Shown here in pieces: positions 30,401 through 55,355 of a stretch of DNA of 64,000 bases. The DNA is from Chloranthus sessilifolius (Eukaryota > Streptophyta > Magnoliopsida > Chloranthales > Chloranthaceae). The position numbers were made by a program, and so were the translations under genes. Below the pieces are notes generated by a model, which saw only the letters and a program-made list of their open reading frames with translations, was not told the origin of the DNA and made no database searches. Positions within the stretch are counted from its first letter, which is position 1, and the number at the start of each line of letters is the position of its first letter. The stretch lies in the NCBI GenBank assembly GCA_021018995.1, contig CM037590.1, positions 37,946,287 through 38,010,286 of the forward strand. Direction: 5' to 3'.

Positions 30401-33400
30401 TGATTGATATCTGCCAAATAGGAGTATAATTAAATCTTATAATTTATTAAAGATGCTATTTCGTTTGCCTTGCAGATTCATGAAATAGTGACTACTGGAA
30501 AATTATCGAAGTTGGAGCACTTTGAGACAGATGAAAAGGTGTCATGCAGGTTCTTAAAGAATTGAATTTTTATCTCTAGAGAATGCGGTGCTAATATTAT
30601 AAGTTTATATATATATATATGCTAAACACACCCTCTTTATTGTGAGGTTAATATCGTCTCCACTCCAAAATTTCCTCATGCGATGCCATTATAGTAAATA
30701 GATGAAGAGCAAAACCACCCTTTTTACTTTTTGGTGGCAAACTTATATTTCTTTTTATAATTACAAGTTTGCCACTGTGAACTTGTAATTACAAGTTTGC
30801 CACTGGAAAAGCAAAAAGGGCGGCATTGCTCTTCATTTATTAAGGCCCCCAGCACGGGGTCATTTTGGTCCAGGGACAATGCTAACCTCATCCCCCCCCC
30901 TCTCTCTATATATGTACATAAATATATTTCACATTTATATTACATGCTTTTTTATTTTGTGAATCTTTTATTGTTACTTGTACCATCTAGATAATTGTTT
31001 CTGTTCATGCCCATTAAAATTGGGCGCTGCTATTGCCACATCAACTCTTTCTAGGTGCATTCAACTAATGAAATCACTAGATACACTTTATCAACATTTT
31101 TTATTTTATTGGACACACTTTAACAACTTCATCGCGCAGTTCAATTTAATTAAAATAGGCTGCACACAACAGAATGAACAGATTCTCTTCATCTTCATCC
31201 AACTTGAAAACTCTAATCCTACTTCTCTCTCCTCTCTCTCCTCGCCCTTAAGTCCTTGAATACATGCGACGTTCTTGACTATAAGGAGCTTGCAATGATT
31301 CCTATCTTGCAACCAGACAAGTTTTGCCTAATGGATTAAAATAAATTTGTTATATTCAATTGACAAGAACACCAAAATCGATCTAGTTCTTGCATACCAG
31401 CATGAATTGTCACAAATAGTGAGCATGCAATAGAAACAAACAATCCACAGAAACTATCTTCAGTCTCTAGCTTATAAACCATGATGAAACCCACATTCTT
31501 CCTCCCTTTGCTAACAATCTTATTCTTCTCCATAGCTGAGGTTGACCTACTGGTCGGCTTTATGCCTATCCAAACAATTTCTCGAGTCCGTGCAATGAAA
31601 AAAAATGGCAGCTCCTTGTATCCATACAAATCATTATGGGGGAGAGATTTGCCATCCAAATCCGCAGCCAATGAAGAACCCAAATGGCTTATGGAGTCCT
31701 TGCAGTTTGGTGATCTATTAGAATATATACAGCACACCAGTTACAATAATGCCCGTATAAATGTAGCAAAGACTAATTAGGAACTATCTACATAAATGAC
31801 TAAACTACTCTCAACTAGACTATATGTCTCCTATGAGCTTTATTAACACTCCCCCTCAAGTTGAAGTATAGATATCAACCATACCCAACTTGGATATTAA
31901 ATCATGTAATCATGCTTTTCACACAACTATTGTAAGCATATCTGCAAGTTGCTCTAGAGTGCTAACATGAGGAGTACAAAACTCCCTTGAAGCTATCTTT
32001 TCCCTTACAAATGGCAATCAAATATGCTTCATACGTCGAAGCATTGATATCAACCATGACCATATGTCTACTGTGAGGTTTATCAACACTCCTCTCAAGT
32101 TGAAGCATGGATATCAACCATACCCAACTTGGATACTAAATCATGTAATCTTGATTTCCTCTTAAATTTTGTAAGTATATCTGAAACTCCCTTGAAGCTA
32201 TCTTCTCCTTATAAAATGGCAATCAACCTTTATATGCTTTATTTGTTCACGATACACCGTATTGTTAGCAAGAATGTGGCTTGAGTCGACACACAATTTC
32301 ATAATCTTCACCTTGATTCAAGATCAGCAAGAATAAATGTCACCCATAACCCCTTTGCAAGCATCATGGGCCATGGCCCTATAATTTGCTTGACTACTTG
32401 ATCAAGCTACAACATGATGTTTTTTTTTTAACTTTTCCATGATACTACATTCTGTCCTAAAAAAGTGCGATAGCTAGTAGTGAACCGTCTATCACTGTGA
32501 GATCCATCCCACTCGGCATCATGTATATCTCAACATCACAATGCTCATGATCATAGTACAAAATGCTCACGACACACAATTTCATAATCTTCACCTTGAT
32601 TCAAGATCAGCAAGAATAAATGTCACCCATAACCCTTCGCAAGCATCATGGGCCATGGCCCTATAATTTGCTTCAGTACTTGATCAAGCTACAACATGAT
32701 GTTTTTTTTTTAACTTTTCCATGATACTAGATTCCGTCCGAAAAAAGTGTGATAGCTAGTAGTGGACCGTCTATCATTGTGAGATCCACCCCACTCGGCA
32801 TCATGTATATCTCAACATCACAATGCTCATGATCATAGTACAAAATGCCCATGCCCTTCCCAGGGATTGACTTCATATAACTGAGCATCCTATAAAGTCC
32901 ATCAAGGTGACCTTTGGAAGGAGAATGGATATATTGGCTAATAACATTTACAACATATGCTATGTCACTGAGTGATCATGAGATATACAGTTTCCCAACA
33001 AGCCGCTGATGAAGGCAAAACATCTTCAAGAGTTTCATTCTCCTTAGCATCCATTTTATGGTTGGGTTCTATGGAGACTCGACTGGCCTAGCTCCCAACA
33101 TACCTGTCTATTTGAGGATATATATAGTATACTTTCTTTGAGATATGAAGATCCCCTTTTTTTTACCTGACCACCTCTATCTGCAAAAATTACTTGAGAG
33201 GCCTCAAGTCTTGTATGTCAAACACTCTGCTTAGGTATACTTTCAAAGTAGAGATCTCCTATTGATGATGACAATATCATCCCTATATACAATAGCTGTT
33301 GTTATATGCCGCTCTCGTTTAATGAATAGTGTGTGATCATAATAGCTTCTTTTATATCCAATCTTCATCACAGTTTCACTGAATTTTTGAAACCAAGCTC

Positions 33401-36400
33401 GTGGTGATTGCTTTAATTCATATATAACCTTTTTAGCATGCAAAGCTGATTTTTCTCCATTCGAAATGAAAAGCCAGGAGGAAGAGATATACACTTATTC
33501 CTGAAGATCACTATGAAGGAAAACATTTTTAACATCTAGCTCATGTAGTGCCACATTCTATGGGAAAATAGAGAAACGAAGGCACAAATTGAGTCAACTT
33601 GGCAATAGGAGCAAAAGTCCCATTATAATCGATCCCTATGGCCGTGTATAGCCCTTAGCAACTAGCTGTTCTTTACACCTATCCACAGATCCATCAAGCT
33701 TGTATTTAATGGTATACACCCATCTACAACCAACCACCTTCTTCCCCTCAGGAAGAATAGTCACCTCCCAGGTTTCGTTGCATTCAAGAGCTTTCAATAT
33801 AGGACACATTTACCAATGGGTGTATAATATCCTGGACTTTCATCATAAAAGTAAGGTTTCCTTGTTGCTATTTTTAATGAAATTGAGATAGCATTGATGA
33901 TTGGCACATGTATTATAGCATGTATGATTAACACTCTATAGTGTCTCAAAATCATAGTAAACACAAAAAAGAGCAGAAGTGCCAGCTATTAAAAAGTTAA
34001 GGGTAAAAATTGTAAAGGGGTAGATTTGGTAATTGTGAAAAATTTAGGGGTACTGTAAATAACATTGGCCCTAGCTTGGCATGTTATAAAGAATCAGGAC
34101 TAGCAAGAATGGGAAATGAGCAGCTAGTAGAAAGATCACGAGAAGAATCAGCAACAACAATGGTAGCGGACGGCACTTATTATCCACATTGAATTAGTAT
34201 AGGCCTCCTCTTAGTACCCTTAAGGTCTCTTAGTAGTGTGATCCTGAACAATACAATGTGAAGGGTAAAAAGTAACTGAACAGTTCAATGATTTATAATA
34301 CTACTAAGTGAAAGGAAATTAGTAGAGATATGAGGATACATGATGGGGACGCCGACATCGTAGACATCGGATATGGACCTTTTCGCGTGTACCAACGGTG
34401 GAAGAAGCGGAACGGAAATCAGAATTAGGCGAAAGATGAAATTCTATAGGATTAGGAGGAGCACAACAAATTCGATTGATCAAAGTCTAATTTCGATCGA
34501 TCGAACTTTACAGGGAAAAAATTTGTTCTAGAGTATATAATTCGATCGATCGAATTATATACTTGATCGATCGAATTTACATTCAATCGATCGAGTTTCA
34601 ACTTCGATCGATTGAATTCCAGTGGCGAAGTATTTATATATTTTTTCGATCGATCGAGTTTCACTTTCGATCGATTGAATTTAAATTTCGATTGATCGAA
34701 TCTCACTTTCAATCTATCGAAATCGCGTAGTTTATATTTTTTTTGTTTTTTTTTAAAATTTCGAAACCGACTTGTAGGGGCATACTTGTCTCTTTTAGTA
34801 TTTGTGTTAGGGTTTTATTTTCGTTTGAGAGGACTCCTATATAAGGTCCTTTAGATAAACAATGTAATTAGTTATTGATTATTGAATGAATGAACTTTTG
34901 CTTTTGGAACTTGAGATGAGTTTCTCCGAAGAGTGAATCTTCTTCCCGAGAAGGGTTTGGTGTGAAGCCAAGGGTGTGAAGCCCGCAAAATTTATTTTCT
35001 ATCTATCTATTTTTTATCTTCTCTGCTTGTATTGATCCCACAACCCTAACTCAACCATCATCCTTTTGAAATTCTAAACCCTAGCTTTTCCCTAAGCCAT
35101 TGAATCGATTCGATTCAACAATCGTAGCCTCCATCAAACTATTAAGCCTAGCCATATCAAAATAACCCGAAAACCAAAGATTCCATCATTGCACTGTGAG
35201 CGCTCTAATATGGAAATCTAGAGTTCTATCTCTAGGTTCGATCCATGCTGCAACCTAACGGATCTAACGCCCGGACTGAACCTTGCTCGAATCATACGCG
35301 ATCCTCCAATGGAATACTACGAAAGCCTAAGGTATTCGCTATATTTTAGAGTTTATTGTTTAATTTAATTCGATTAAATTTCGGCAATCAATTAATCATT
35401 GCATTCACGTAGTTTAGAGTATTGTCCTGCGTCAGTTTTGGTATCAGAGCCTAGGTTTTAGGTTGGGGCATACTGTGTGACATTGAATTCATTGCACTTT
35501 AATTTTAATCGCATATTATTCCTGTTTTGGCCAAAGTGTGCACATCACGTGTTTGTCAAAAGTTCCCCTTCATTGTCAATTCATTTTTCATTCCATTCTA
35601 GAACCCGTCATTAGTGAATTGTATCACCATGGACATGAGTGGGATTGCCGAGGCTCTTAACGGCATGAAGGTTGATCTAAAATCGATCAAAGATCGAATG
35701 ACTGCCATGGAGACAGCCCAAAGGACCCTTGAAATGACCAATGAGAAGTTGTTAGACTGAGTCAATCGATTAGATGAGGGTGATGAGTACCTCGAACCAC
35801 CCCTGAGCGTAATGGTTCACGTTTTGAACGAAATGGCTACCAACATAATCAGAACCGGAATCATAGGTTAGATCATCATGGAGATGACTACGAGACCCGG
35901 AAGGAAGGCTCCTAAAAAATGCTCGAGTTGGGTTCCCAACTTTCGATGGAAGATTAGACCCTCAAGTCTTCCTCGATTGGTTATCCGATATGGACCAACA
36001 CTTTGATTGGTTTGGCATGAGCGATGAAAGGTGCGTTAGACTTGCTAAAATGAAGCTCATAGGCCAAGCCCAACTCTTTTGGGTCAACGTTGAACGCATC
36101 AGAACGAATGCGGGTTGTACTCTCATTACCCGTTGGGAGGACATGAAGGAACAACTTACAGAGAAGTACGTTCCTTCTTTATACTACCATTGTCTCCTCG
36201 ACCAATGGCAAAATCTGGGCCAAGGTAGTATGCCCGTATCAGACTACATTGGCAAATTTGAAGAATTCATGATGAGAGCCAAAGTGTTTGAAGACCCTCA
36301 AGTCACTCTATCCAGATTCCGCACCGGATTGAGACTTGACCTGCAGAAAGAGTTAGTCTCCCACCCTGTTGAGACTCTCGCCAATTGTTACACCGTCGTT

Positions 36401-39400
36401 CAAGACCTTGAACGATATTTGAAAATGACGATGACTATGCGATCTGATTTTCACCCCGATTAACTCCGTACCGGCGAAGTGAGATCTAGTGCTGGAAACC
36501 CGCCTACCAAACCCACACAACCCACATCTACCAATATAAGATTTGACAAAGGTAAGGGTGTAGCCGGAGAATCCTCGCAGAGTGGGTCTCATGTCAAGTG
36601 TTATAAATGTCAAGGATTGGGACACTTTGCCGCCCAATGCCCTATGAGAGACCCACAAAGGAATCTCTTCATCGATGGAGAAGGAGAAGAAAGTGAAGGA
36701 GTTTATGAGGAAGAGACCTTTGAGTCGAATGCCACACCTAGTGATGAGGAAGGTGATGACATGGGTCGTGCTCTAGTTGTGAGGTGTGCCTTTGCACAAC
36801 CTTAGTGGGATGAAAAGGAGGATTGGCGGAGGGAGAGCATCTTCCACACCTTCGCCACATGTGGGACAAAGAGTTGTAGGGTTATTATGGATAGCGGAAG
36901 CTGCACCAATGTGGTGTCAGAACATACCGTCACCCGCTTAGGGCTTACACCTGAAGCCCACCCGAGACCTTACAAAGTCGCATGGATTGACTTCTCATCC
37001 ATTCCCGTATCTCAGAGGTGTCGTGCACCCATACAGTTGGGTTCATACTCAGACCCCTTATGGTGCGATGTGGTGTCGATGGATGTAGGCCACATTATCT
37101 TAGGGAGGCCATGGCTCTATGATTTGAACGTGACCATTTTTGGTCGATCTAACATTTGCACGTTCAATTACAAGGGCAAGAAAGTTACTCTTAACCCTTT
37201 GGCTCCCAAAGCACCATTGGTCAACAAAGTTGAGAAGAAGGGAGGCCAATCCAAGGCCATCAACGTTTTGAGCCCTTCAGAGTTTGAGAGGGCATCGTTA
37301 GATGAGAGCGTCGTGCATGTCGTTGTCACTGTTAAAAGTACTTCTGAGTCAGTCTGTGAGTACCCCAAGGAGGTAGAGCCCATCCTGAATGAATTTGCGA
37401 ATGTCTTCCCCGAAGACTTACCTAATGAGCTCCCTCCCATGCGTGACATTCAACACGTAATCGACTTGGTTCCCGGATCTACATTACCCAACCTGCCCCA
37501 CTACAGGTTGAATCCGGTTGAGCACGCCGAGTTGACTCGACAAGTCAGTGAGCTCCTTCAAAAGGGGTTCATACAAGAGAGTCTGAGCCCGTGTGCTGTA
37601 CCAGCATTACTCACGCCTAAGAAAGATGGTACATGGCGCATGTGTGTGGATAGTTGGGCAATTAATAAAATCACTGTTAAATATCGGTTTCCCATACCGC
37701 GACTTGATGACATGCTTGACATGATGGTTGGAGTCACTATCTTTCCCAAGATAAACCTTAGAAGTGGCTACCATCAGGTGCGAATTCGCCCTGGCGATGA
37801 ATGGAAAACCGCCTTCAAAACCAAAGACGGTGTCCGATCTCTATGATATTGGAAACATTACCTGAGACCGCAGGAATTTGTATTGTTTTCTGACCACGAA
37901 GCCTTACGTTTCCTTGCTTCCTAGAAAAAGTTGAACCCGAGGCACGTGAAGTGGGTCGAGTTCCTTCAAGGGTTCACATTCGTACTGAAGCATAAGGCTG
38001 GTGCCGAGAACAAGGCAGCTGATGCGCTTAGTCGTCGAGTGGCGACTTTGCAGGCTATGAGCACCGAGGTCATCGGATTTGAGCAGTTGAAAGAAGATTA
38101 TCTTGATTGCCCCGATTTCGGGGCAAAATATACTGCTTTCCTTGAAAATTTTAACAACATTAACTCCGATTATGCCCTGCTGGATGGGTATTTGTTCAAA
38201 GGAAATCGTTTGTGTATCCCTCGTACTTCATTGCGTGACTTCCTCATCTAGGAGTTACATACCGGAGGGATTACAGGACATTTTGGGCGCGATAAAACCA
38301 GTGCGCTCGTTGAGGATAGGTTTTATTAGCCTAGCCTTGTGAGAGATGTCTCTAGGGTCGTAAAACAATGTCATACATGCCAAGTTGCGAAGTATATCAA
38401 GCAGAATACTGGCTTGTACACCCTTTTACCCGTGCCACATACCCCGTGGCAAGACATCTCCATGGATTTCGTGCTGGGACTTCCAAAGACTCAACGGAAG
38501 CACCATTCCATTTTTGTGGTAGTGGACCGCTTTTCAAAGATGGTCCACTTCCTACCTTGGTCTAAAACCTCCGATGTGACTCACAGCCAAATTATTTTTC
38601 GAGGAGGTTGTGTGTCTACATGGGTTACCCCAGACGATTGTGTCGGATCGGAATGTGAAGTTTACCAGTTATTTCTGGAAAATTTTATGGCACATGATGG
38701 GTACCATGCTCCAATTTTCTTTGGCCTATCATCCTCAAACAGATGGCCAAACAGAGTCCACCAATGGAGCTTAAGTAATCTTCCCCGTTGTCTTGTTGGT
38801 GATCACCCAAGGACTTAGGATTCTACTTTGCCTTTAACCGAGTTTGCATACAACAATTCAGTCAATAGGTCCCTAGGTATGAGTCCTTTTGAGGTCGTTC
38901 TTGGTCATAGGCCTAGAACACCTATCGATCTAATCCCCATGTCTGCATCCCATCGAGTTTTTGAGTCAGCCGATTCATTTACACATCATATATATGAATT
39001 GCATGCCCAAATTAGAAAAAGAATTAATGCAAGCAATGAACAATACAAAATATCTGTGGATGCGCATAGGCGCTTCAAAGAATTCTAGGTTGGAGATTAC
39101 GTAATGGTTCGGGTTAGGCCTGAGCGGTTCCCATTGGGAGCCGTAAAGAAACTTCAAGCCCGCGACGCTGGACCTTTTAGAATTGTGGCAAAGAGCGGGC
39201 CTAATACATATGTTCTCGAGCTTCCACCGGATATAGGGGTCAGCTCTATATTCAATGTGGAGGACCTGGTTCCTTCTATAGCCCCAGCCCCACCCCCTCA
39301 CAACCCCTTCCAAGCAGCCCCGAGTCTAAATGCCAGCCCCACCCTGCAACCCCTTCCCTTCCCTTCCTCACGTAAGCAGCGCAGAGATGAGATCGAAGGG

Positions 39401-42400
39401 ATATTAGATGATTTGGCGATATCCACCCATGGGGGTGGAATTCAAAAGTACTTGGTCAAGTGGTTGGGAAAGCCGGACTCCGAGAACTCATGGTTAGTTG
39501 AAGACAAGGTGCGACGCCTGGACCCCGACATGCTCGAGCGCAATTACAACGCCGCTTCATCGGTGATGAAGCCTTTTCGGCCCGGGAGAATTGATGGGGA
39601 CGCCGACATTGGATATGGACCTTTTCGCGTGTACCGACGGCGGAAGAAGCGGAACGGAAATCAGAATTAGGCGAAAAATGAAATTCTGGAGGATTAGGAG
39701 GAGCACAACAATTCGATCGATCGAAATTTTCGTTCGATCGAAGTCTAATTTCGATCGATCGAACTTTACAAGGAAAATACTTGTTCTGGAGTATATAATT
39801 CGATCGGTCGAATTCCAGCGGCGATCGAATTATATACTCGATCAATCGAATTTACATTCGATCGATCGAGTTTCAACTTCGATTGATCGAATTCCAACTT
39901 CGATTGATCGAATTCCAGCAGCGAAGTATTTATATATGTTTTTCGATCGATCGAGTTTCACTTTCGATCGAATTTAAATTTCGATCGATCGAATGAAATC
40001 GCGCAGTTTATGTTTTTTATGTTTTTTTTTTAAATTTCGAAACCGACTTGTGGGGGCATACTTGTCTCTTTTAGTATTTGTTTTAGGGTTTTATTTTCGT
40101 TTGAGAGGACTCCTATATAAGGTCCTTAAGATAAACAATGTAATTAGTTATTGATTTTTAAATGAATGAGCTTTTGCTTTTGGAACTTAAGATGAGTTTC
40201 TCCGAAGAGTGAATCTTCTTCCCGAGAAGGGTTTGGTGTGAAGCCAAGGGTGCGAAGCCCGCAAAATCTATTTTCTATCTATCTATTTCTTATCTTCTTT
40301 GCTTGTGTTGATCCCACAACCCTAACTTAGCCATCATCCTTTTGAAATCCTAAACCCTAGCTTTTCCCTAAGCCATTGAATCAATCCGATTCAACAACCG
40401 TAGCCTTCATCAGACTATTAAACCCAGCCATATCAAAATAACCCAAAAACCAAAGATTCCATCATTGTACTGTGAGCGCCCTAATCTGGAAATCTAGAGT
40501 TCTATCTCTAGAATCGATCCACGCTGCAACCTAGCGGATCTAACGCCCGGACTGAACCTTGCTCGAATCATACGCGATCCTTCAATGGAATACTATGAAA
40601 GCCTAAGGTATTCGCTATATTTTAGAGTTTGTTTAATTTAATTCGATTCAATTTCGGCAATCAATTAATCATTGCATTTACGTAGTTTAGGGTATTGTCC
40701 CGCGTCAATACATGGTTCCTACCCCCTGAACATGCGGAAGGAACCATTAGCTAAGTGAACCTGTGCAAATGCCGATGGAGGAGAATATAAGGTGAAGTCT
40801 TGGGAGTCGTTGGCATGGTTTAAAATACTGGTTTTCCGGTATGTATCGTCCAGTTTCACAACTGGTACGTATCGTCTGATACGTACTGGTTCCGGACGAT
40901 ACATTACCAATATATATGTAATGCACCGCTATGATACATTCAAAGTATCGTATCGGTGACCTCCGAAACGGATACGTAACGTCCGGTACGTACCGGTTTT
41001 GGACGTGATTTTGAACCATGGTCACTGGTCATATGATCAGTAGCACCAGAATCGATTACCCAACAAAGGTTGTGTGATGCAATAGTAGCACAGAAGTATC
41101 AGAAGGCAGATAAATTGCGGTAATGAAAGCAGATGAGCCACTCTGGTAATCGTCCTTACACTTATGAAAACCATCATAGTGGTCATAGTCATGTCCACTC
41201 ATACAACAGTAGTGACTTGTACCAATGTGCCCATCAAGATAATGACGGCCATCCATAATAAAGATAGGGACAAGATAGCCCCAAATAGATGAATAGGGAC
41301 ACAAACAGCTAAGCAGAGGGATTCCACTAATTAAAATTGATGATTCATTTATAGATCAATCGAACAAACCAAGCTGGTTTAATACCTTATATAACAAATT
41401 TAACATATGTATCAATGCAGACCACTGAGAAAAAAAAAACAACATTCGTATTCCAACCATATTTCTAGCAAGAACAAACCGCAAGAACAACATCAAATGA
41501 CAACATTAGCTGCAGTACAAGCAGCTCTGTAGAAGCCATAAATTTCACAATAGTGCTTTAGTAGGGCCAATCGGGGATAAAAAATAATGAACAGCTTGAA
41601 TCAGATTACTGGTTAAGAGAACATCTGCACTAAATCTGATGAAAAATACCTTCGATTCAACCTACCAAAGTGGATCAAGCACGGCCAAAAGTAGATCATG
41701 GGAACAGCCATTGGAAACATGTCAAAATGGAAAAAATCGAGATCTCAAACTCCTCCAAAAAACAAGATATCTCATTTAGGAAGCCGGGCCGAAATGAGAT
41801 CACTGTCAATGGATTGTCGCTGAAAAAATGACCCAAATGCATGCCAACTATCTCACTTTATAGCCTCACACATATCAAGAGCCCAGAAAAACAAACACTG
41901 GTTGAGATTTCTGAACCTCAACCATGTATTCAAAAGCCCATTGAATCTACTTCATAGACAAAAACCAGATGCTACCATATAACTCAGCATGAAATTCTAT
42001 TTCAAGAATGAAGACATACCTTTATTGACGGGGACGCCGACATCGTAGACATCGGATATGGACCTTTTCGCGTGTACCGACGTCGGAAGAAGCGGAATTG
42101 AAATCAGAGTTATAGAATTCTAGAGTGATATTTCGACCGGTTGAATCATATATTCGATCGATCGAATATTTTGATGGATCAAAATGTGAATTCGACCGAT
42201 CGAATGTCGACGGCGATTTTTGATAGAATTATGAAATTTCGATCGATCGAAATTTCAAATCAATCCATCGAAATCGCGCCGGGTTGTTTAGTTAATTTAG
42301 GAGTTTAATTTTGAACTTCTGTTTTGAGGGTTTATTTGTCTTTTATTTATTAATTGTTTTAGGGTTTTCTTTTATTGAAAGGACTCCTATATAAGGTCCT

Positions 42401-43096
42401 TAAGTGAACAATGTAATTAGTTGATGATTAATGAAAAGAGATTTTGCTTGTGTGCTTGAGATGAGCCTATACGGAGAGTGATTCTTCTTCCTGAGAAGGG
42501 TTTGGTGCGAAGCCAAGGGTGTGAAGCCTGCAAATCTATCTTCTATCTACCTATCTATCTCTTATTATCTTTGCTTGTGTGATCCTACCACCTTAATTCA
42601 GCCATCATCCCTTTTGAAATCCTAAACCCTAATTGTCCCTGAATCCTTGAATCGATCCGATTCAACAACCGTAGATCCCAACTAAGTTATTAAACCTTCC
42701 GCACCAAATACTCAGAGGAAACCAGTGATCCCATCATTGAGTCGTGAGCGCCCTAATCTGAGAAAACCGAGAGTTCTATCTCTAGGATCGATCTACGCTG
42801 CAACCTAACGGATCTAGCACCTGGACTGAACCCTACCTGAAGCATACGTGATTCTCCCATGGAATACTACGAAAACCTGAGGTATTCGTTATATTTTGTG
42901 AATTTTATTGTTTAATTTAATTCTAATCATATCATTCATGTAGTTTAGGGAACCGTCCTGCATCATTTATCTTCTCAATCCAAGTTCGAAGTTTGACCAA
43001 TAACTAATATCAGCGCTGATTATGTAACACTGGCAGGTCAGGATAGCCTGGCTCTGATACCAAATTAACTATTTAGGTCTAAGGTTTTAAGGTTTA

Positions 43097-43145
<49 letters not shown>

Positions 43146-46100: not shown

Positions 46101-49100
46101 CGTCCCTGTCAATTCCCCCGGGCCAAATAGGCTTCATCACCAATGAAACGCGCTCGTGGTAGATGTCAATCAAATAAGGGTTCAATCGGTGGACCTCATT
46201 CTCGTGGATCCAAGTGTTTTCGGACTCCGGTTTGTCGACCCATTTAACCAAGTACTTCTGGAATCCCCCGTCATGTGTAGAGACGGCATGATCATTGATT
46301 ATATCCTCTATTTCATCTGTTTTCTGTCTGCTGGGGGAAGGGACTGGTAAAGGTTGCAAGGTTGGGTTGGGACTGGGACTAGAAGGTGGCTAGAGTGAAT
46401 TTTTAAGAGGTGGGGTGAAACCCAAATAAGGAACCAAGTCCTCCACATTGAACGTTGAACTAACCCCCATACCTGGAGGAAGCTCGAGCACGTATGCATT
46501 AGGACCACTCTTAGCCAAAATTCTAAAAGGACTAGCGCCTCGAGATTGGAGCTTCTTTGCAGATACCGATGGGAACCGCTCAGGCCTAATCCGGATCATC
46601 ACATAATCACCCACATGAAATTCTTTAGAACGCCTGTGAGCATCTACAGATAATTTATATTGATTGTTGCTTGAATTAATTTTCTGTTTAATTTCGGCAT
46701 GCAAGCTATGAATATGTTGTGCAAATGCATTGGCAGACTCTGACACTCTATGGGATGCAGACATGGGGATCAAGTCTAATGGGGTCTTAGGCCTATGACC
46801 ATGTACTACCTCAAAAGGACTCATGCCTATGGACCTATTGACAGAATTATTATACGCAAGCTCAGCTGTGGGTAAGATGGTATCCCATGTCCTAACATGA
46901 TCACCGACAAGACTACGAAGGAGATTCTCAAGGCTTCTATTGGTGCTTTCGGTTTGGCCATCCGTTTGAGGGTGGTAAGCTGTAGAGAATTGGAGCAATG
47001 TGCCCATCATGTGCCAAAGGGGCTTCCAAAAATAACTAGTGAATTTAACATCCCTATCAGACACAATGGTTTTGGGCAACCCATGAAGACGCATTACCTA
47101 TGCGAAAAATAGTTTAGCAATATGAGACGCATCGGAGGTTTTGGAATAAGGAATGAAGTGGGCCATTTTGGAAAATCGGTTCACTACGACATAGATGGAG
47201 TCGTGCTTCGTAGGGGTCTTAGGAAGTCCAAGCACGAAATCAATAGAGAGGTTTTGCCACGGTGTGTGTGGCACGGGTAACGGGGTGTACAAGCCGGTAT
47301 TTTGTTTGGTCTGTTTTGACACTTGGCAAGTACAACAATGCCTGTTTTGACACTTCGCAAGTACGACAATGCTTAACGATCCGGGCGACATCTCACATTA
47401 GGCTAGACCAAAAGAACCTATCCTTTATGAGCGCAACAATTTTATTACGCCTGAAATGTCCTGCCATCCCTCCAACATGTAACTCCCAAATGAGAAAGTC
47501 ACGCAATGAAGTGCGAGGGATGCAAAGGCGATTGCCTTTGAACAAGTACCCATCCTGGATAGTGTACACGGAGTGTGTGCCGGTCGGGTTACTAAGGAGA
47601 GTAATGTACTCAACCTTAAAATCTGGGCACTTGGGGTACTCATCCTTTAACTTTTCGAACTCGACGACCTCGGTGTTATTGTGCGCAAAGTCACCACTGG
47701 CCAACTAAGTGCATCAGCGGCCCTATTTTCAGCACCGGCCTTATGTTTTAACACGAATGTGAATCCTTGAAGGTACTCAACTCACTTCGCGTGCCTTGGG
47801 TTCAACTTCTTCTGTGAAGCAAGAAAGCGTAAGGATTCATGGTCAGAAAATAGCACAAATTCCTGCGGTCTAAGGTAATGTTTCCAATACCAGAGAGATT
47901 GGACGACCGCATAGAACTCCTTGTCATAGGTGGAGTACTTTCGTTTCGCCTCGTGAAGTTTTTTACTAAAATAGGCCACGGGGTGACCCTCTTGGCTAAG
48001 CACTCCTCCTATACCTACATCCGGTGCGTCGCATGCAACTTTAAAGAATTTAGAATTTAGAAAAGTCTGGCAATCGCATGACGAGTGCACTACTCATTCG
48101 TTGTTTGATCTCAATAAAGGCATTCGTCGCCGCTTTGCCCCATTTAAAGTCCCCCTTTTTCATTTAATCTGTAATTGGGGCCATAATGGTGCTAAAGCTT
48201 CTGATGAAGCGACGATAAAAAGTAGCTAAACCATGGAAGCTACGAATATCGTGTATGTTCTTAGGCTCGGGCCACTCCACAATGACTCACCTTTTCGGGG
48301 TCCGCGACCATTCCATCGGTTGAGATAATGAATCCTAAGAAGACAACGGAATGTTACATGAAGGTGCACTTCTTGAGATTTGCAAACAACTTCTCGCCCT
48401 TGAGGGTTTCACAAACCAGCCTAAGGTGGTTCAAGTGTTGATCCTTGTCATGACTATAGATCAATATGTCATCGAAATAAACAAGGAATTTGCCTAGAAA
48501 TGGCCTCAACTCTTGGGTCATGAGTCGCATGAAGTACTCGGGGCATTAGAAAGCCCGAATGGTATTACCATCCACTCATAAAGACCAATTTTAGTCTTAA
48601 AGGCGGTTTTCCACTCATCACCGAGGCGGGTGCGGACTTGATGGTAGCCACTCTTAAGGTCTATCTTTGAAAAGATAGTGGCACCAACCATCATGTTAAG
48701 CATATCATCGAGCCTTGGTATGGGAAACCGATATTTAACCGTAATCTTATTGATTGTACGGCTATCCACACACATGCATCACGTACCATCTTTCTTAGGA
48801 GTGAGTAGGGCAGGTACGACACACGGGCTCATGCTCTCTTGGATGAACCCCTTCTGAAAGAGCTCATTGACTTGTCGAGTCAATTCAGTGTGCTCAACCA
48901 GATTCAACCTGTAGTGGGGTAGGCTCGATAAGGTAGATCAGGGAACCAAGTCTATTGCGTGTTGGATATTACACAGGGGAGGGAGTTCTTTTAGTAAGTC
49001 ATTAGGGAAGACATCCGTGAACTCTTTTAAAATCGGCTCCCTCCTTGGGACACGCATTCTCTGATTCGGGTGCACGCTCAACAGTGACAACTATGTACAC

Positions 49101-52100
49101 CACACTCTCATCTAGCGATGCTTTCTCGAACTCAGAAGGACTCAATATTAACGGCTTTAGAAGATTCACCCTTCTTTTCGATGGTGCTGGTCGATGGTGT
49201 TTTGGGAGGCAAAGGGTGTAAAGTGATCTTTTTGCCCTTATGCATGAACGTGCTTATGTTTGATCGACCAGAAAAAGTCACGCCCATGTCGTAGAGCCAC
49301 GACCTTCCCAAAATAATATGGCCCACATCTATCGGCACATCACACCATAAGGTGTCCGAATAAGAACCCAATTGAATCGGTACATGACACTTTTTCGACA
49401 CGGGAATGGATGAAGAATTGACTCATGTGACTTTATAAGGTCTCGGGTGGGCTTCAGGTGTAAGCCCTAAGCGGCGCACAACATGAGTTGATATTACGTT
49501 AGTGCAACTACCGCTATCCACGATGACCCTACAATTCTTTTCACCAAATCTGGCGTAGGTGTGGAAGATGTTCTCCCTCCGCCAGTCATCATTTTCATCC
49601 CGTTGAGGCTGTGCAAGGGCACACCTCACAGCTAAGCATGACGAATAACATCACCCTCCTCATCACTGGGTGTGCTAACCGGTTCAAATATTTCCTCTTC
49701 AACCACTACCTCATCATCATCCTCCTCTCCCTTAATAAAGAGTCCTTTGGGGTTCTTTCTTAGGGCACTGGGCAGCAAAGTGTCCCATTACATGACGTTT
49801 ATAGCATTGTACTTGAGAATTAACCCTTGAGGATTCTCTGATTACACCTTTTCCCTTTTCAAACCTAGAATTGGTAGGGGCAGGTTGTGTAGGTTTGGGA
49901 GGAGGATTAAATCGTCCCTCACCGGATCGTTGAACGCTATGTTGTGGCTCGGTCCTCTTCACCACCGTAGTTTTCAAGTACCGTTCAAGATCTTGCACAA
50001 CAGCATAACATCTATCAAGAGTTTCTACGGGGTGAGAAATCAACTATTTTTGCAAATCAAGTCGCAATCCGGTGCGGAATCTAGAGAGAGTGATTTCAGG
50101 GTCTTCTGATACTTTTGCCCTCATCATGAACTCTTCGAATTTGGCAATGTAATCGGTCACGGGCATACCACCTTGACGTAAAGTTTTCCATTGGTCGAGG
50201 AGGCGTTGGTGGTGTGATAAAGGAACATACTTCTCAGTAAGTCGTTCCTTCATGTTGTCCCAATAGGTAATGGGAGGACAACCCGCATATACCCTGATGC
50301 GTTCGACATTGAACCAGAAAAGCCGAGCTTGACCAACCAATTTCATCTTAGCGAGTCTAACGCAACGGTCGTCATTCATGGCATACCAATCAAAGTGTTG
50401 GTCCATGTCAGAAAGCCAATCGAGGAAGACGGTAGGGTCCATTCTTCCATCGAAAGTCGGAATCTCAACCTGGACGTTCTTAAGGAGTTGAACTTCGGTA
50501 TCATAGTCATCTCTACGATGATCCCTACGGTTCCGGTTGTCTTGGCGACCATTACGCTCAAAGTGAGGACGCTCACGCTCTTGGTGTTGATTTTCAGCCC
50601 ACCCATCGCTTCCAGTTGGTTGATTCAATCACGTAATCTATCATTACCAACTCCTAGGGATGTTTAGGCTTGCTCAATGACATTTAGACGTGCACTAATC
50701 GCACCCCATTCCTCATACATAGCTCTTTGAGTATTAAGAACCTCATCCGAAGCCATGGTGATCACAAAGTCTATTAGGGTTCTAATATGAAATGCAATAT
50801 GGACTCACAAAAAGGAAACAATGCAATAAAATAAATATGACAAGCAAAGATGCCGTAACCTAGAAAACCTAGGGCTCTGATACCAAAACTGACGCGGGAC
50901 AACGACCCTAACATGCGCAATATGATTTTTATGCAAATTTTGCCGAAATTAATGAAATTAAATCAAGTTTAATCACAAAATTATCTTTGATACCTTTAGG
51001 TTTTTACATAATTTTTGATGGGTAGATCACACGCAATCCAGGTAGGGTTCAGTCCGATGCGCAAGTACTTTTCGAGTCGAAGCGAGATCGGCCTAGAGAT
51101 AGAACTCTAGCTTTTTCCAGGCTTAGGCGCTCGTCTTGGGTCCGATATAGATTCACAGATTCTCAGTTGGGTTGTGAAAGGGATTTGCAGTTTGCAAGAG
51201 GCTTATGGTTTGGAACGGGTGTTGGCTATATTTGAATTTGGGTTTCAAAAGGGTTTAGGGTTTTGGGAAAGCAAGGAAATAATTAGGCTAAGGTTTTCGA
51301 AAGCAATCACAGATTGAGAAATAGCAAATAGAATAGAGAAGATAACAATGGCTTTGAGAATCACTCCCTTGGCCTCACACCAAACTCATCTCAGGCAAAG
51401 ATTACTTAACCATAAAAGCATCAACTAACTAAAAGGTGTTTACAAGCCTCTATATATAGGCCACCAATAATTAAGTTCGAAATAAAAGAGTCCTAATACT
51501 AATAAAACACAAAAAAAGGGAAGTTTCGCATAAAATTCCGTCTGAAGTCGTGCCGAAGCTTGCTCGAGCGAGGATTATCATTGCTCGCGCGACCTTAAGT
51601 GACCGCTCGCGCGACTTTAAAGTCGTCTCCGTAGCTCGCGCATGAGGATTATCATCGCTCGCGCCACTTCAAGGGCTTGCTCGCGCGAGGGCTCTCTGCG
51701 GCATTGTTCTCCTTACTGTTTGTGTCTATTTCTCCTCTGAGGCTGCGGTACTCGGATTTCCTCTATGCTTCTTCCGACGCCAATAAAAACGATGTGGTCC
51801 AAATCCGATGTCCATATATGTGGCGTTCCCGTCACAAGTCAAGCTATTCTTGATATCTTGGGCAAGTTGGGGATGATAGATATTTTTCCCCAATTTGAAC
51901 GGGAGTGTAAGAGTTCATGTTGTAGACATACATGTAGTATAGGACCCTGTTGTAGACTATGTATGGTGTTGAAAGTTATGTCGAGGGTATCTTGTCTTGT
52001 ACTTCTTTGCTATGCAATAAAGATCGAATGGGCTAAGCTTCCCGAAATACAATATTTCCATCTTATTTGTCTACTTTCTCTTCCTTCTTCATCTTCTTAA

Positions 52101-53601: not shown

Positions 53602-55355
53602 AAAAATAAGGGTTGTAAATTCTATACCTCACTTATACACTAAAAAATATGATCATATGTACATCGCTAACATCTAACTACACATGTTATTTCCACCACC
53701 GACACACCTAATTTATACTAGAGGTACACCACATGAAAAGCAGGAGATTATTCGAAGGTGACTCTGCATAACAGCAGCACAACTATAGAGGCAAGAATTT
53801 CATGACCGAATTTTGGTCTTTCACATCTTTTTCTTTATTTTCTCCCCATTTAGTTGATTTAGAATGTTTAAACCCTTATTTAGGAATTTTTTCCGGTACT
53901 TAAATGATATTAGATTTATTATATAGGTTTAAAAGAAAAAGGAGAGTGCTGGCCTCTCCTTTGCTTGATTATTCTTGCGTGTTGGAGAAACTTGAGAAGC
54001 TCTAGCTTCTAGTTAATTATTATTCACTTATTTACTTCATTTCTAATTTTTTTTTTTTATCGGTACTTCATTTCTAATTATTTGTTTGTAAATTATACCA
54101 TCTTCGTGCTATCGGCACATTCCAAGTGCATGTCAAATTGAGCAAAAGGGATTAATCCTAAAATTTGGGTAAAGTGAAAACACTGTCTATTGTGCTACAA
54201 CAAGTAAACTGAATAAAATGATATATGTAATGCGTATGTTTATAATTCATTTTAAGTGGGGATCAAGAATGTATGCATCAAGCTTGCAATAATAAGCCAG
54301 CCTAGGAATAGGAGCCTGTGAAGATGTCATTTATCTGGTATTTAGATGGCACATATCAAGCACCATTTTTTGGTGAATTTCTAATTTATTTTTTTTACTT
54401 TTGAGCATGATATAGTGGTTCTTTTATAACTGAATTAAAATTTGAATACATTTTTATTAGGCGTTGATTATTTTTAAAGTGAAAAACTTACTTATTTGTT
54501 AGTTTCTTTCTTGAATGACATTTCGAAGGCTGGTCTTTTGTCTGTGCTTCCAGTCACAAAGGTTTCCTCCCACGATTTGTTCAGTATTTAAAGGATATCA
54601 AGTTTTTGAGAGAGGATTTGATCTTCAGCATCCACAGCACGGTAAAAGTTGTTTTATCATGTTAGGAAACTGTTCATTCACAAATTTAATTATTTTCTAT
54701 AAGCTTATGGAATATAAGAGGCTAGATACATCAGTTATAGGTAAAAGAATACCCATCCAGGCCATCATATTCCTACCAATTTTCTTTTTGATGATCCATC
54801 AGTTGAGACCAAAATCCATATTTAATATTATCGTTTGAAGGGACACTTGGTTTGTTTATCTTGCCTCTTAACAAGATAAAGAGAGCATATATATATATAT
54901 ATATATTTGTTAGCATTATCTTTTACCTATGACGAATGCTAGGTCCAAACTAGAAGCAACCTGTTTCATTCCCCACCATGCTGGTAGGGATAGGGTTTGT
55001 ATGGCTGCTTTACACTACAAGACAGGAAAATTTGCATCAGTTTCATATTGCAAAGAAAATTAATAGTTATCAATGAAGAAATGAAACTGGTTCACTATTT
55101 CTCATCTAACTTGGCATTAAGCTGTTACTTTTACAGGTTAAATGCATCATTTAAAATACATCTAACCTTGCTAGATGGGAGGAAAGAGAGAATTTTTGTG
55201 GGTTGTGTTATCTTTCATATTGTCATTCTTATTTGGGGGTCTCTTGAAATTTACATATGTGTGAGGCAATACAGGGAACTGATTCAGGCGTTGATACATA
55301 CTTTGGTCTTTGCACGTATCCTGGTCGGGAGCTGCGGCATCGCATAGATCTCAAG
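14342..55355 (+). CDS. POLL: DNA polymerase lambda (family X); internal exons not found, 3' end beyond window
   Basis: Eight exons match plant Pol lambda: 14342-14458, 17431-17565, 23442-23825, 24078-24171, 24277-24407, 30476-30538, 54554-54641 and 55275-55355. All have GT-AG borders. The enzyme fills gaps in base-excision and end-joining repair in the nucleus. Exons 1-3 encode an N-terminal BRCT domain ([19 protein letters not shown] to [14 protein letters not shown]) and a Ser/Asp-rich linker. Exons 4-6 encode the 8-kDa lyase domain ([41 protein letters not shown]). The last two encode palm sequence including the third catalytic aspartate (RIDLK). About 105 residues between them, with the GVGP helix-hairpin-helix, the GGSYRRGK nucleotide-binding motif and the GDLDI aspartate pair, are not seen in the intervening 24 kb. 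Exon 6 ends in phase 0 while 54554 needs two bases from the preceding exon, so the two cannot be joined in frame. The gene is either broken at this locus or misassembled. The final exons lie right of 64000 or are lost. Confidence 0.9.
14549..14895. mobile_element. Foldback MITE with arms above 120 bp
   Basis: The left arm (from gggaaaatttcaaaaaaacg) and right arm (to ttttttgaaaattttcct) are near-complementary over more than 120 bp, leaving a short loop (about 14690-14770). Long arms suggest a Mutator-like origin. It starts 90 bp after POLL exon 1, so the unspliced transcript would form a long hairpin. Confidence 0.85.
15026..15083. repeat. Microsatellites (TTA)n, T run, (TG)n
   Basis: Consecutive simple repeats: TTA from 15031, a short T run, then TG to 15083. 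Confidence 0.95.
15582..15946. mobile_element. Foldback MITE in POLL intron 1
   Basis: The left arm begins gcgcatggcatagctct and the right arm ends agagctatgccatacgc. The arms pair over about 150 bp with scattered mismatches. No coding capacity and no clear target duplication. Confidence 0.85.
15947..17430 (+). other. POLL intron 1, right part
   Basis: It contains no recognised gene. Short open frames near 16091-16672 do not match any family I know and may be decayed transposon DNA. The acceptor for exon 2 is ctgtcattag (17421-17430). Confidence 0.4.
17431..17565 (+). CDS. POLL: POLL exon 2 (BRCT core)
   Basis: This exon has 45 codons in phase 0 at both ends. [20 protein letters not shown] and [11 protein letters not shown] match the BRCT fold of plant Pol lambda. 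Confidence 0.92.
17794..18000. mobile_element. Palindrome-rich MITE, copy 4
   Basis: The left end is decayed (taaagttcaaaatc) and the right end is GTTTGACCCATG. The 8-bp duplications are cttatgat (17786-17793) and cttatggg (18001-18008). It lies in POLL intron 2. Confidence 0.75.
18368..18450 (+). mobile_element. Short SINE-like element, copy 1
   Basis: It has a gggcttgggcc head, a caacctcaaggtcgcaagtt core with a B-box-like gttcaagcc, and an A-rich tail (catagaaaaac). The same sequence occurs in reverse at 25040-25134. A GA microsatellite follows directly. Confidence 0.65.
18451..18487. repeat. (GA)n microsatellite
   Basis: A dinucleotide run of about 18 units with one interruption. Confidence 0.95.
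18725..22195 (-). mobile_element. L1-type LINE, reverse strand (linker, reverse transcriptase, C-terminal zinc motif)
   Basis: Reading leftwards: a pre-RT region with [17 protein letters not shown] (near 22050), a linker with [12 protein letters not shown] (21544-21828), and the reverse transcriptase core [17 protein letters not shown] and [12 protein letters not shown] (21022-21324). [12 protein letters not shown] segment (19741-20016) and the [18 protein letters not shown] zinc motif (near 19500) then precede a T-rich 3' UTR ending near aataaaaattt (18725). The RT catalytic YxDD box is not readable. Frames are broken many times, and a MITE (19195-19423) lies between the zinc motif and the 3' UTR. 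It lies antisense in POLL intron 2. Confidence 0.85.
19195..19423. mobile_element. Palindrome-rich MITE, copy 5
   Basis: The left end is decayed (caaaggatcaaaatc); the right end is GATTTTGAACCATG. The duplications are gacccaac (19187-19194) and gactaaac (19424-19431), 6 of 8 matching. It sits inside the L1. Confidence 0.75.
22196..22960 (-). mobile_element. Copia-type LTR and adjoining 3' internal fragment, reverse
   Basis: On the - strand a purine tract (acttgaggga, about 22500-22512) is followed by an LTR start TGTTGGAGATAATATG (from 22499 leftwards). The right part (22500-22960) is degraded internal sequence. It is a fragment without recognisable protein domains. Confidence 0.55.
23026..23555 (+). 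repeat. 265-bp tandem duplication covering the POLL exon 3 acceptor and exon start
   Basis: Unit 1 is 23026-23290 and unit 2 is 23291-23555. Both contain an intronic lead, the cctgttgcag acceptor and the first 38 codons of exon 3. Units are about 96% identical by eye. In unit 1 the frame runs into intron-derived sequence and stops at 23351-23353. Confidence 0.95.
23177..23290 (+). pseudogene. Duplicated 5' part of POLL exon 3 (decoy exon)
   Basis: It starts [18 protein letters not shown] after an intact acceptor (ttgcag, 23171-23176), like the true exon at 23442. No donor of its own is visible: the copy ends at the duplication border, and the frame then gives IFGRGMRN and a stop. Splicing from exon 2 into this acceptor would truncate the protein after the BRCT domain. 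Confidence 0.85.
23442..23825 (+). CDS. POLL: POLL exon 3 (BRCT end and Ser/Asp-rich linker)
   Basis: This exon has 128 codons in phase 0. [18 protein letters not shown] closes the BRCT domain; the rest is a poorly conserved linker ([14 protein letters not shown]). It is taken to end at GAA before gtacat (23826). The linker in Pol lambda is known to vary freely. Confidence 0.88.
24078..24171 (+). CDS. POLL: POLL exon 4 (lyase domain start)
   Basis: [18 protein letters not shown] is followed by [13 protein letters not shown], matching the start of the 8-kDa domain. It ends one base into a codon that exon 5 completes as Ala. Confidence 0.93.
24277..24407 (+). CDS. POLL: POLL exon 5 (lyase domain, first helix-hairpin-helix)
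   Basis: [20 protein letters not shown] and [14 protein letters not shown] are near-invariant in plant Pol lambda; LPAIGK is the first helix-hairpin-helix. It ends in phase 0 before gtaagc. Confidence 0.95.
24408..25033 (+). other. POLL intron 5, left part
   Basis: AT-rich intron sequence; I see no repeat or gene in it. Confidence 0.5.
25034..25143 (-). mobile_element. Short SINE-like element, copy 2, with target duplication
   Basis: It is the reverse complement of the element at 18368, with the polyA tail as a T run on the left (25040-25048). Flanks share ccttcat (25034-25040 and 25135-25141). The head ends at ctccccctac. Confidence 0.72.
25600..25640 (-). mobile_element. Short SINE-like element, partial copy 3
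   Basis: A T run followed by aataggtaagctgggattga matches the tail end of the SINE at 25040. It stops where the next foldback MITE begins. Confidence 0.5.
25643..25901. mobile_element. Foldback MITE in POLL intron 5
   Basis: The left arm (gccccaaaaccaaatttatt, then gttttcaaaatatttacc) pairs with the right arm (ggtaaatattttgaaaac, then ggttggttttggggc) over about 80 bp. The loop contains repeated agaccna words. It abuts the partial SINE. Confidence 0.82.
26260..26859 (+). mobile_element. Degraded LTR-element 3' end (polypurine tract and LTR start), split by a TRIM
   Basis: Removing the TRIM, ttgaaggggag followed by TGTTGTGAATACAG (from about 26738) looks like a polypurine tract and LTR start. 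The LTR seems to continue after the chromovirus insertion at 26860-30115, since gagcttagg and tctcttagtt adjoin across it. Family is uncertain, probably copia-like. Confidence 0.45.
26357..26727 (+). mobile_element. TRIM (terminal-repeat retrotransposon in miniature), 371 bp
   Basis: Left LTR 26357-26537 starts TGTAATAGTCCAACATCGG and ends in CA. A 35-bp interior follows, with a primer-binding site (ttggtattagagcc) and a polypurine tract (acatgggggga). The right LTR is 26573-26727. A 5-bp duplication ttgaa flanks it (26352-26356, 26728-26732). It has no coding capacity and depends on other elements for transposition. It lacks the 5S-like segment of Cassandra TRIMs. The LTRs differ at well over 10% of sites, so it is old. 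Confidence 0.82.
27698..28099 (+). mobile_element. Unknown internal ORF of the composite element, 133 aa
   Basis: An ATG 14 bp after the primer-binding site opens a frame beginning [18 protein letters not shown], helical and rich in charged residues. It occupies the gag position but lacks a recognisable gag core. A second frame (28118-28513) directly downstream is rich in Val, Pro, Glu and Ser ([18 protein letters not shown]). I do not recognise either. They may be divergent gag-like or acquired sequence. Confidence 0.5.
28720..29535 (+). mobile_element. Chromovirus gag fragment
   Basis: Ty3/gypsy gag core: [69 protein letters not shown]. It runs up to the right-hand LTR piece. No protease or reverse transcriptase follows. 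Confidence 0.85.
30476..30538 (+). CDS. POLL: POLL exon 6 (lyase domain end)
   Basis: [20 protein letters not shown] plus Lys, 21 codons, phase 0 at both ends; nearly identical to plant Pol lambda. The next expected residues (a VRTISLF-like start) are not found downstream. Confidence 0.93.
30635..30895. mobile_element. Foldback MITE after POLL exon 6
   Basis: The arms pair gaggttaatatcgtc with gacaatgctaacctc and tagatgaagagcaaaacc with ggcattgctcttcattta. A second inner repeat (acaagtttgccact) occurs twice near 30764-30803. It begins about 100 bp past exon 6. Confidence 0.75.
31481..31780 (+). other. ORF of 99 codons with a signal-peptide-like start
   Basis: The frame opens [20 protein letters not shown], a strongly hydrophobic segment like a signal peptide, then a basic and Ser-rich stretch. 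It lies antisense within or beside the copia 3' LTR. I know no family for it. It may be chance or a remnant of a small secreted-protein gene. Confidence 0.2.
32288..32850. repeat. 283-bp tandem duplication inside the copia element
   Basis: Units 32288-32570 and 32571-32850 start gacacacaatttcataatc and are about 97% identical by eye. A separate older repeat of the polypurine/LTR junction (caaccatacccaacttgg) occurs near 31877 and 32118. Confidence 0.9.
34341..40707 (+). mobile_element. Chromovirus (Ty3/gypsy with chromodomain), near full length
   Basis: The 5' LTR is 34341-35434 and the 3' LTR 39592-40707, with a perfect ataca duplication (34336-34340, 40708-40712). Primer-binding site gttttggtatcagagcc (35435) fits initiator methionine tRNA. 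Parts in order: gag (35630-36463), zinc knuckle [14 protein letters not shown] (near 36600), protease [10 protein letters not shown] (36890), reverse transcriptase [15 protein letters not shown] (37690), RNase H (DALSRR, 38015), integrase (38339-39090) and chromodomain [18 protein letters not shown] (39445-39500). The chromodomain frame (39104-39670) runs about 80 bp into the 3' LTR. It is broken in several places. The LTR 3' halves differ at about 5% by eye, implying insertion some millions of years ago. Confidence 0.93.
40814..41020. mobile_element. Palindrome-rich MITE, copy 6
   Basis: It starts CATGGTTTAAAATAC and ends GATTTTGAACCATG. The duplications are gtcgttgg (40806-40813) and gtcactgg (41021-41028). 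It is inserted just after the copia protease motif. Confidence 0.83.
42026..42965 (+). mobile_element. Solo chromovirus LTR, 940 bp
   Basis: It runs TGACGGGGACGCCGACATCG to GTCCTGCATCA with a perfect tttat duplication (42021-42025, 42966-42970). It is closely related to the LTRs of the element at 34341. It includes the coding tail, an array of TTCGATCGATCGAA words (42128-42275) and a TATA box (cctatataaggtcc, near 42385). It was formed by LTR-LTR recombination inside the copia element. Confidence 0.92.
43071..44160 (-). repeat. Presumed copia 5' LTR region with (GA)n and a 422-bp direct repeat
   Basis: It follows the copia primer-binding site. A (GA)n run occupies 43101-43143. A segment starting ggaacccaccccccattctt occurs at 43241-43460 and 43663-43885, about 95% identical, with shared ccagctggcacctgtagc. 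No start or end of the LTR could be fixed. Confidence 0.5.
44161..44372 (-). mobile_element. Second copia-type LTR fragment, reverse
   Basis: On the - strand it begins TGTTAAGAGTATATCTCACG (44372) and contains tctctattaatgaaacta, a composition common near the polyadenylation region of copia-type LTRs. It differs from the LTR at 31848, so it is from another element. Confidence 0.45.
44542..44733 (+). other. Unrecognised ORF, 63 aa
   Basis: [20 protein letters not shown]... with [20 protein letters not shown]. The composition looks protein-like (helical, no simple repeat), but I know no family for it. It lies just before the + strand copia remnant and may be part of it or a captured fragment. 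Confidence 0.2.
44740..52120 (+). mobile_element. Copia-type 3' end (RNase H tail and LTR), split by a chromovirus
   Basis: The left part (44740-45136) ends with RNase H C-terminal sequence ([25 protein letters not shown]). The right part resumes at 51835 with [10 protein letters not shown], the usual end of copia polyproteins, followed by a short LTR-like stretch to about 52120 with polyA signal aataaag. The element at 45137-51834 sits exactly between them. It is broken and old. Confidence 0.8.
45137..51834 (-). mobile_element. Chromovirus (Ty3/gypsy with chromodomain), reverse, near full length
   Basis: The 3' LTR is on the left (45137-46111) and the 5' LTR on the right (50890-51834), with a perfect caagt duplication (45132-45136, 51835-51839). 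Primer-binding site ggctctgataccaaaac precedes 50890. Parts, right to left: gag (50044-50628), zinc knuckle region (near 49800), protease [11 protein letters not shown] (near 49530), reverse transcriptase [19 protein letters not shown] (48518-48775), RNase H (47782-48090), integrase (46390-47391) and chromodomain [16 protein letters not shown] (near 46240). The chromodomain frame (45946-46359) runs about 165 bp into the LTR. LTRs carry GCTCGCGCGA-type words. It is broken in several places, and the LTRs differ by roughly 6-8% by eye. Confidence 0.93.
52121..52631 (+). other. POLL intron DNA, no gene seen
   Basis: A short direct repeat (acatttgagagatgaat, near 52207 and 52248) is the only structure. 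I searched it for the missing POLL exons and found none. Confidence 0.45.
52632..52816 (+). mobile_element. tRNA-derived SINE
   Basis: The A box ggttggtgcgatgg (52633-52646) and B box ggttcaagtcc (52690-52700) are clear. Flanks share ttgttat (52625-52631, 52817-52823). The body includes gtacgcacagggcc, reminiscent of Au-like plant SINEs. Confidence 0.75.
52824..54553 (+). other. POLL intron left of the palm exon
   Basis: AT-rich intron with a (GA)n run at 53556-53597. It contains no recognisable exon on either strand. The acceptor of the next exon is tgcttccag (54545-54553). Confidence 0.5.
54554..54641 (+). CDS. POLL: POLL palm exon ([20 protein letters not shown])
   Basis: One base completes a split codon, then 29 codons follow: [20 protein letters not shown] and DLIFSIHST. 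This matches the segment right after the THPDG-like end of the catalytic strand in plant Pol lambda. It starts mid-codon, so it requires an upstream exon ending two bases into a codon. Confidence 0.9.
54642..55274 (+). other. POLL intron between the two palm exons
   Basis: A short intron of 633 bp with a (TA)n run near 54885-54905. Nothing else is seen. Confidence 0.6.
55275..55355 (+). CDS. POLL: POLL palm exon with third catalytic Asp
   Basis: [20 protein letters not shown] then RHRIDLK, 27 codons, phase 0. The Asp of RIDLK corresponds to the third metal-binding aspartate of family X polymerases. The following exon (a VYPRD-like start) is not in the window. Confidence 0.93.

Follow-up and report, generated by a model that had tools for sequence, protein, structure and literature searches.

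Repeat-rich plant genomes contain genes that have lost, or seem to have lost, internal exons, their large introns being full of LTR elements and the gap lying between exons that are themselves intact. The locus described here differs from those cases in that the gap takes the catalytic core of DNA polymerase lambda (Pol lambda), which PMC10787897 reports as the sole X-family polymerase of higher plants. According to the same paper, plant Pol lambda proteins carry a His in place of K312 of the mammalian lyase domain, and mutation of K248 or K255 reduces the lyase activity of the Arabidopsis protein. Truncation within this gene is known from the Arabidopsis line atpol-lambda-1 (SALK_075391C), which carries a T-DNA in intron 9 and is predicted to produce a BRCT-containing protein cut inside the polX domain; PMC4444747 regards this product as unable to carry out DNA synthesis, and describes the plants as fertile, normal and moderately DSB-sensitive. 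In plants with a Pol lambda knock-out, Cas9 cuts are described as healing by deletions only (PMC11282277). Among the literature matches listed, no title or abstract opening mentions a natural loss of POLL exons in plants.

Structure of the POLL locus

The window, that is, the whole stretch of 64,000 nucleotides that we analysed (C7:37946287-38010286, in an assembly of 2,168,743,587 bp, or 2.17 Gb, with 32 contigs, at least 15 of which measure 96 to 199 Mb), contains most of one POLL gene on the plus strand, with eight exons that are open and have correct splice sites. The plant query protein used for the comparisons was an Arabidopsis-like sequence, which matches human Pol lambda with E=1.2e-47 and the exons of the window closely. 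Exon 1 (14342-14458; tblastn E=5e-8), which is open and ends at a GT donor, contains the ATG and the start of the BRCT region; exon 2 (17431-17565; E=7e-9; acceptor AG, donor GT) continues the BRCT, and exon 3 (23442-23825; E=4e-13; open, AG/GT) comprises its end and the linker. The 8-kDa lyase domain starts in exon 4 (24078-24171; open, also matched by tblastn), continues in exon 5 (24277-24407) and ends in exon 6 (30476-30538; E=3e-7 over 21 aa; AG/GT). Joined together, exons 1 to 6 form an open frame of 924 nt, or 308 codons, with AG/GT borders. After an interval (30539-54553) in which we found no POLL exon, the gene resumes with two palm exons, one starting with HKGFLPRF (54554-54641; 2e-11) and another with the RIDLK motif (55275-55355; 7e-15), whose Asp is the third catalytic aspartate. 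The last three exons lie beyond the window; when its numbering is extrapolated, they occupy 76413-76480, 82414-82498 and 82744-82842, and the final one ends in FLGFPWLEPHDRNL followed by a stop. The third catalytic Asp and the C-terminal (thumb) part are thus both retained. From ATG to stop, the gene occupies 68.5 kb of C7, as deduced from the window and the 50 kb read beyond it.

The identification of the gene as POLL is based on three kinds of evidence. Human Pol lambda (PDB) matches a joined-exon query spanning the gap with E=1.2e-11; Pfam recognises HHH_8, the 8-kDa lyase domain, in exons 4-6 (56.5 bits versus a cut-off of 30), as well as DNA_pol_B_palm positions 60-109 in exons 54554-54641 and 55275-55355 taken together (25.2 bits versus a cut-off of 25); and the exons resemble the Arabidopsis-like query protein. 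Compared with plant Pol lambda (Arabidopsis At1g10520, rice OsPol lambda), the similarity to the Arabidopsis-like query sequence can be followed exon by exon from the BRCT region to the C-terminal FLGFPWLEPH.RNL, whereas neither the HhH of the fingers nor the palm portion with GGSYRRGK/GDLDI is present in the assembled locus. The original prediction had described the lyase and later palm exons as intact and correctly spliced, and this holds for the eight exons of the window, all open and with AG/GT borders, and for the three additional ones that lead to the stop. The 11 remaining exons contain no stops, frameshifts or broken splice sites and, hence, do not have the appearance of a decayed pseudogene.

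Two tandem duplications were also observed in the window. One, of 265 bp and 96% identity (23025-23289 and 23290-23554), repeats the acceptor and the first ca. 113 nt of exon 3, and the copy lying upstream forms a decoy exon, which reads into a stop. The other, of 366 bp (9816-10550), shows one difference in 366 sites and is either very recent or an assembly artefact.

Search for the missing catalytic exons

Measured on the plant query protein, the sequence missing between the end of exon 6 and position 54554 amounts to 107 codons plus two bases. Aspartates D427 and D429 of the GDVD motif (full-length human numbering, from PDB coordinates with an offset derived from the alignment table), the catalytic pair, fall within this stretch. 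It had been predicted that some 105 residues are absent from both strands of the interval, and our searches agree with this. Regular expressions allowing mismatches for the second HhH and for GGSYRRGK/GDLDI gave only chance-like partial matches on both strands of the window; tblastn of the whole window with the plant query sequence and with the PDB-derived human sequence gave no match beyond chance for the missing pieces, and specifically none to the GDLDI exon inside the interval; and hmmsearch --max did not find the missing exons among 3391 stop-to-stop frames of the window. The best E value for any missing piece was 0.04, at 60175-60116, outside the interval, and it was not accepted as a remnant. 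By comparison, that tblastn run detected genuine exons of 27 and 29 codons with E values of 7e-15 and 2e-11. Likewise, planted copies of three query segments were recovered in 40 of 40 cases each at 86, 72 and 60% identity, and in 37, 28 and 40 of 40 cases, respectively, at 50% identity. The flanks of the window, 10 kb on its upstream side and 50 kb on its downstream side, yielded chance-like matches only, with E of 0.23 and above. Neither the fingers HhH nor the catalytic Asp pair (GDLDI) was, therefore, found in the window or its flanks, nor was exon 8 found in the genome-wide searches described below. The gap probably corresponds to two exons (7 and 8) and not to three, because a lone copy of exon 7 on C8 forms a single block of 63 codons.

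POLL sequences elsewhere in the genome

Genome searches, which score the best candidates only, returned eight matches with the C-terminal half of the query protein: five to this gene, one on C8 and two on C14. This search contains its own internal control, because it picked up the exons of this gene over 29-44 aa with 61-83% identity, and it gave no match for the GGSYRRGK/GDLDI exon (exon 8). An additional, uncontrolled genome search with exon 8 by itself produced zero candidates, an empty outcome that alone shows nothing. With exons 1-6, we obtained 10 matches, of which seven belonged to this gene, including one to the duplicated part of exon 3, two corresponded to parts of exon 3 located on C3 and one was chance-like (E=1.18). 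The genome search with PF14792 missed even this gene, with zero matches, and is thus uninformative.

The C8 match is a lone, decayed exon 7 (C8:18331735-18331923, minus strand) of 63 codons and 76% identity to the query sequence; it is interrupted by an in-frame TAG and has no AG at the acceptor, although it keeps the donor GTATGT; no other POLL exons appeared in 100 kb read around it. A stretch of 56 bp located 365 bp upstream of this exon is 96% identical to positions 43064-43119 of the window. We did not accept it as the edge of a deletion; its core 18-mer occurs, among 54 loci, only at the C8 place. On C14, the final two exons of POLL occur as a duplicate (C14:58457672-58459551, minus strand) that extends over 1.8 kb, with 38 differences in 1741 sites (2.2%); it is isolated, with no further POLL exons in the 100 kb read around it, and the C14 stretch examined includes 7,500 N. 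A 19-aa match to exon 8 on C14, with 37% identity and E=0.012 for one of 13 exon queries, was taken as chance. Lastly, the exon 3 fragment on C3 (C3:28724758-28725037, minus strand) is 94-95% identical and consists of two pieces.

In all, exons 1-6 match a single locus, apart from the exon 3 fragment, and exon 8 has no match, which indicates that POLL has a single locus in this assembly and that a second intact copy is lacking, as far as the best-scoring candidates tell. The second intact copy contemplated in the original prediction is, therefore, rejected for this assembly, where we found only the pieces on C8, C14 and C3. It is also very unlikely that exons 7-8 escaped detection through divergence, splitting or displacement to a distant part of C7 or elsewhere. 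A decayed exon 7 does exist on C8 and the genome searches rate only the best candidates, which would allow for it; nevertheless, copies with 60% identity were always recovered in the window, the flanks gave nothing beyond chance and the C8 copy, with its in-frame TAG, lacks an AG acceptor.

Transposable elements in and around the interval

Two full LTR elements (A and B) and a solo LTR account for 14,005 bases (at least 58%) of the 24,015 in the interval, which does not contain a single N. Element A (34341-40707, plus strand) is of Ty3 type, with gag and RT recognised by Pfam, an LTR divergence (K2P) of 0.0615 and the target site duplication (TSD) ATACA; the solo LTR (42026-42965, plus strand) shows the TSD TTTAT; and element B (45137-51834, minus strand), also of Ty3 type and with gag recognised by Pfam, has an LTR K2P of 0.0792 and the TSD CAAGT. 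The matching 5-bp TSDs that border all three indicate that they are simple insertions, neither breakpoints nor chimeras of two repeat copies, and rule out that the exons were lost at their borders.

The remaining 10,010 bases include pieces of decayed copia elements. One of them (31800-33810, minus strand) shows RVT_2 at 33246-33494, with 37.6 bits (above the cut-off of 31.6), and at 33639-33809, with 29.9 bits (below it), and probably resumes beyond element A, at around 40943-41355, where Pol_BBD reached 20.4 bits (below the cut-off of 27) at 40943-41098; no repeat suited as its LTR pair was found. By eye, the translations of 44915-45136 and of the sequence just past element B resemble the terminal part of a second copia, this one with plus-strand orientation, and Pfam gave no family for them; element B is apparently nested in this truncated piece. 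Both copia remnants seem to lack their 5' parts, with those sides facing each other at about 41.1-44.9 kb.

Another LTR element, C (55618-62968, minus strand; TSD GTCTT; LTR K2P 0.175), occupies the intron after exon 55275-55355. It harbours a nested solo LTR (56617-60028; TSD ACTAG) inside which, in turn, lies a small element rich in G+C (56849-59316), whose terminal repeats of ca. 1 kb are 93% alike, in a three-deep nest.

These results bear on two of the explanations advanced originally. A loss within the transposon cluster is compatible with the data, and would be recent given the 11 open exons, but it did not take place at element A, the solo LTR or element B. Misassembly finds no sign in the form of N or of a chimeric element at these three insertions, although an omission would leave the same picture. 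Such an omission would mean that the genome has intact exons 7-8 and that the assembler, or the purging of haplotigs, dropped the stretch and joined both sides without a gap, and we regard it as a serious possibility, if somewhat short of an even chance. Every other exon and splice site is intact, as in a working gene, and the interval is mostly made of LTR elements; besides, there are gaps elsewhere, such as the 7,500 N in C14, and an assembly of only 32 contigs may have been stripped of small pieces that could not be placed. Conversely, none of the three bordered insertions is a chimera, the interval is free of N and a misjoin usually leaves the dropped piece somewhere, yet exon 8 was not matched in the assembly.

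Reading frame and predicted product

Exon 6 ends in phase 0 and exon 54554-54641 opens with the last base of a codon that an intron divides; as had been predicted, they cannot be joined in frame, and a direct join of 30538 to 54554 adds 31 codons before a stop. Reading through into intron 6 would add eight codons before a stop. Judging from these phases, transcripts of POLL as assembled cannot encode a polymerase, and their maximum product could be a BRCT-linker-lyase protein of about 316-339 aa. A truncation inside polX is predicted both here and in atpol-lambda-1, but there it results from a laboratory insertion whereas here the core exons are absent from the assembled locus.

The lyase residues K, K and H of plants are kept in exon 5 with the spacing of Arabidopsis K248, K255 and H260, as mapped by this spacing and the query sequence. 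The position of mammalian K312 is a His, also in exon 5, a feature that PMC10787897 reports for plant Pol lambda proteins and that, therefore, was ruled out as evidence of decay. The end of exon 6 lies a few residues at most from the border between lyase and fingers. The BRCT (PF00533) scored 20.4 bits, below the cut-off of 21.3, although the N-terminus is clearly similar to that of the Arabidopsis-like query protein. For the 308-aa product, NCBIfam returned zero families, and the predicted structure had a mean pLDDT of 45.4, and was thus uninformative; a scan against viral contigs found no relative.

The original prediction had mentioned a BRCT-plus-lyase protein without polymerase activity. 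The retained lyase residues and the end of exon 6 near the lyase border would allow it on sequence, and the intact downstream exons argue mildly against it. In its fuller form, the exons would have been lost longer ago and selection would keep a BRCT-linker-lyase protein that, without being a polymerase, could go on trimming 5'-dRP ends or bringing in partners for end joining. We consider this very unlikely: it would agree with the 308-codon open frame, with the lysines and the His at Arabidopsis spacing and with the position where exon 6 ends, and the decayed exon 7 on C8, if it were the displaced original, would make the loss old; however, the exons after the gap would be useless in such a protein and are intact to the stop, the BRCT does not reach the Pfam cut-off, the structure model is uninformative and, as described below, the five changes that separate the C7 exons from C14 all seem to have arisen on the C14 side.

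Age and constraint of the remaining exons

We evaluated how long the exons could have stayed intact by simulating neutral evolution with substitution and indel rates derived from the LTRs, assuming that 80% of indels shift the frame. The 11 exons and 20 splice sites were all intact in 0.075% of the runs at K=0.0396 (element B) and in 0.5% at K=0.0307 (element A); this proportion was 3.75% at K=0.0194, 18% at 0.01, 42% at 0.005 and 71% at 0.002. With the eight exons of the window and indel rates specific for each element, intact runs were 1.0% (B) and 0.55% (A). According to the simulation, the remaining exons are too clean for a gene that died long ago and, consequently, any loss would be recent.

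The C14 duplicate differs from the C7 exons in five of 184 exon sites, all of which are C or G on C7 and T or A on C14; they include the G of FLGFPW, and two of them are missense on the C14 side. The duplicate has also lost a splice donor. In the flanks, transitions in the direction from C/G (C7) to T/A (C14) number 15, against 12 in the opposite direction. The exons do not differ at a lower rate (5/184) than the flanks do (33/1557), so that the argument from C14 is one of direction, from five sites. With this, the C7 exons look unchanged since the C14 duplication, and the comparison favours a POLL that was functional until recently, or still is, rather than an old pseudogene.

Origin and significance of the gap

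Recent deletion and assembly omission fit the data almost equally. We lean slightly, and tentatively, towards a deletion because there is no gap in the interval, the insertions are clean and exon 8 was not found in the assembly; to our judgement, the chances are not quite even that exons 7-8 (ca. 107 codons, with two of the three catalytic Asp) were recently deleted from the only POLL locus found, possibly in a polymorphic or hemizygous state in the sequenced plant. If the assembly is correct here, POLL would have been a working gene until recently, and some 107 codons would then have been lost from a repeat-swollen intron on the assembled haplotype. The deletion would have occurred in the roughly 10 kb of the interval outside elements A and B and the solo LTR, perhaps at 41.1-44.9 kb, where the two old copia remnants seem to be missing their 5' parts. 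The absence of exons 7-8 from the assembly, within the limits of our searches, stands together with the strong planted-copy controls in the window, the single locus for exons 1-6 and the lack of any exon 8 match in the genome, all of them as expected from a recent deletion. So do the 11 exons, open and with AG/GT borders through to the stop beyond the window. The loss would also be tolerable, in view of the fertile and normally developing atpol-lambda-1 plants (PMC4444747). On the other hand, an assembly with the exons omitted would look identical, an event young enough to leave all else undecayed implies a narrow window of time, and the polarity of the C14 differences concerns five sites, with an exon rate not below that of the flanks.

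A broader reading is that this is a flowering plant naturally devoid of the activity of its sole X-family polymerase, with POLL kept as a BRCT-lyase protein and base excision repair and end joining proceeding without gap filling by Pol lambda, which we consider very improbable. Should the locus represent a natural null species or allele, Pol lambda would be dispensable for plants in the wild, and this predicts deletion-only repair footprints in that plant. If, instead, the assembly omitted the exons, then a gap-free stretch of a chromosome-scale assembly would be silently lacking the catalytic exons of this gene.
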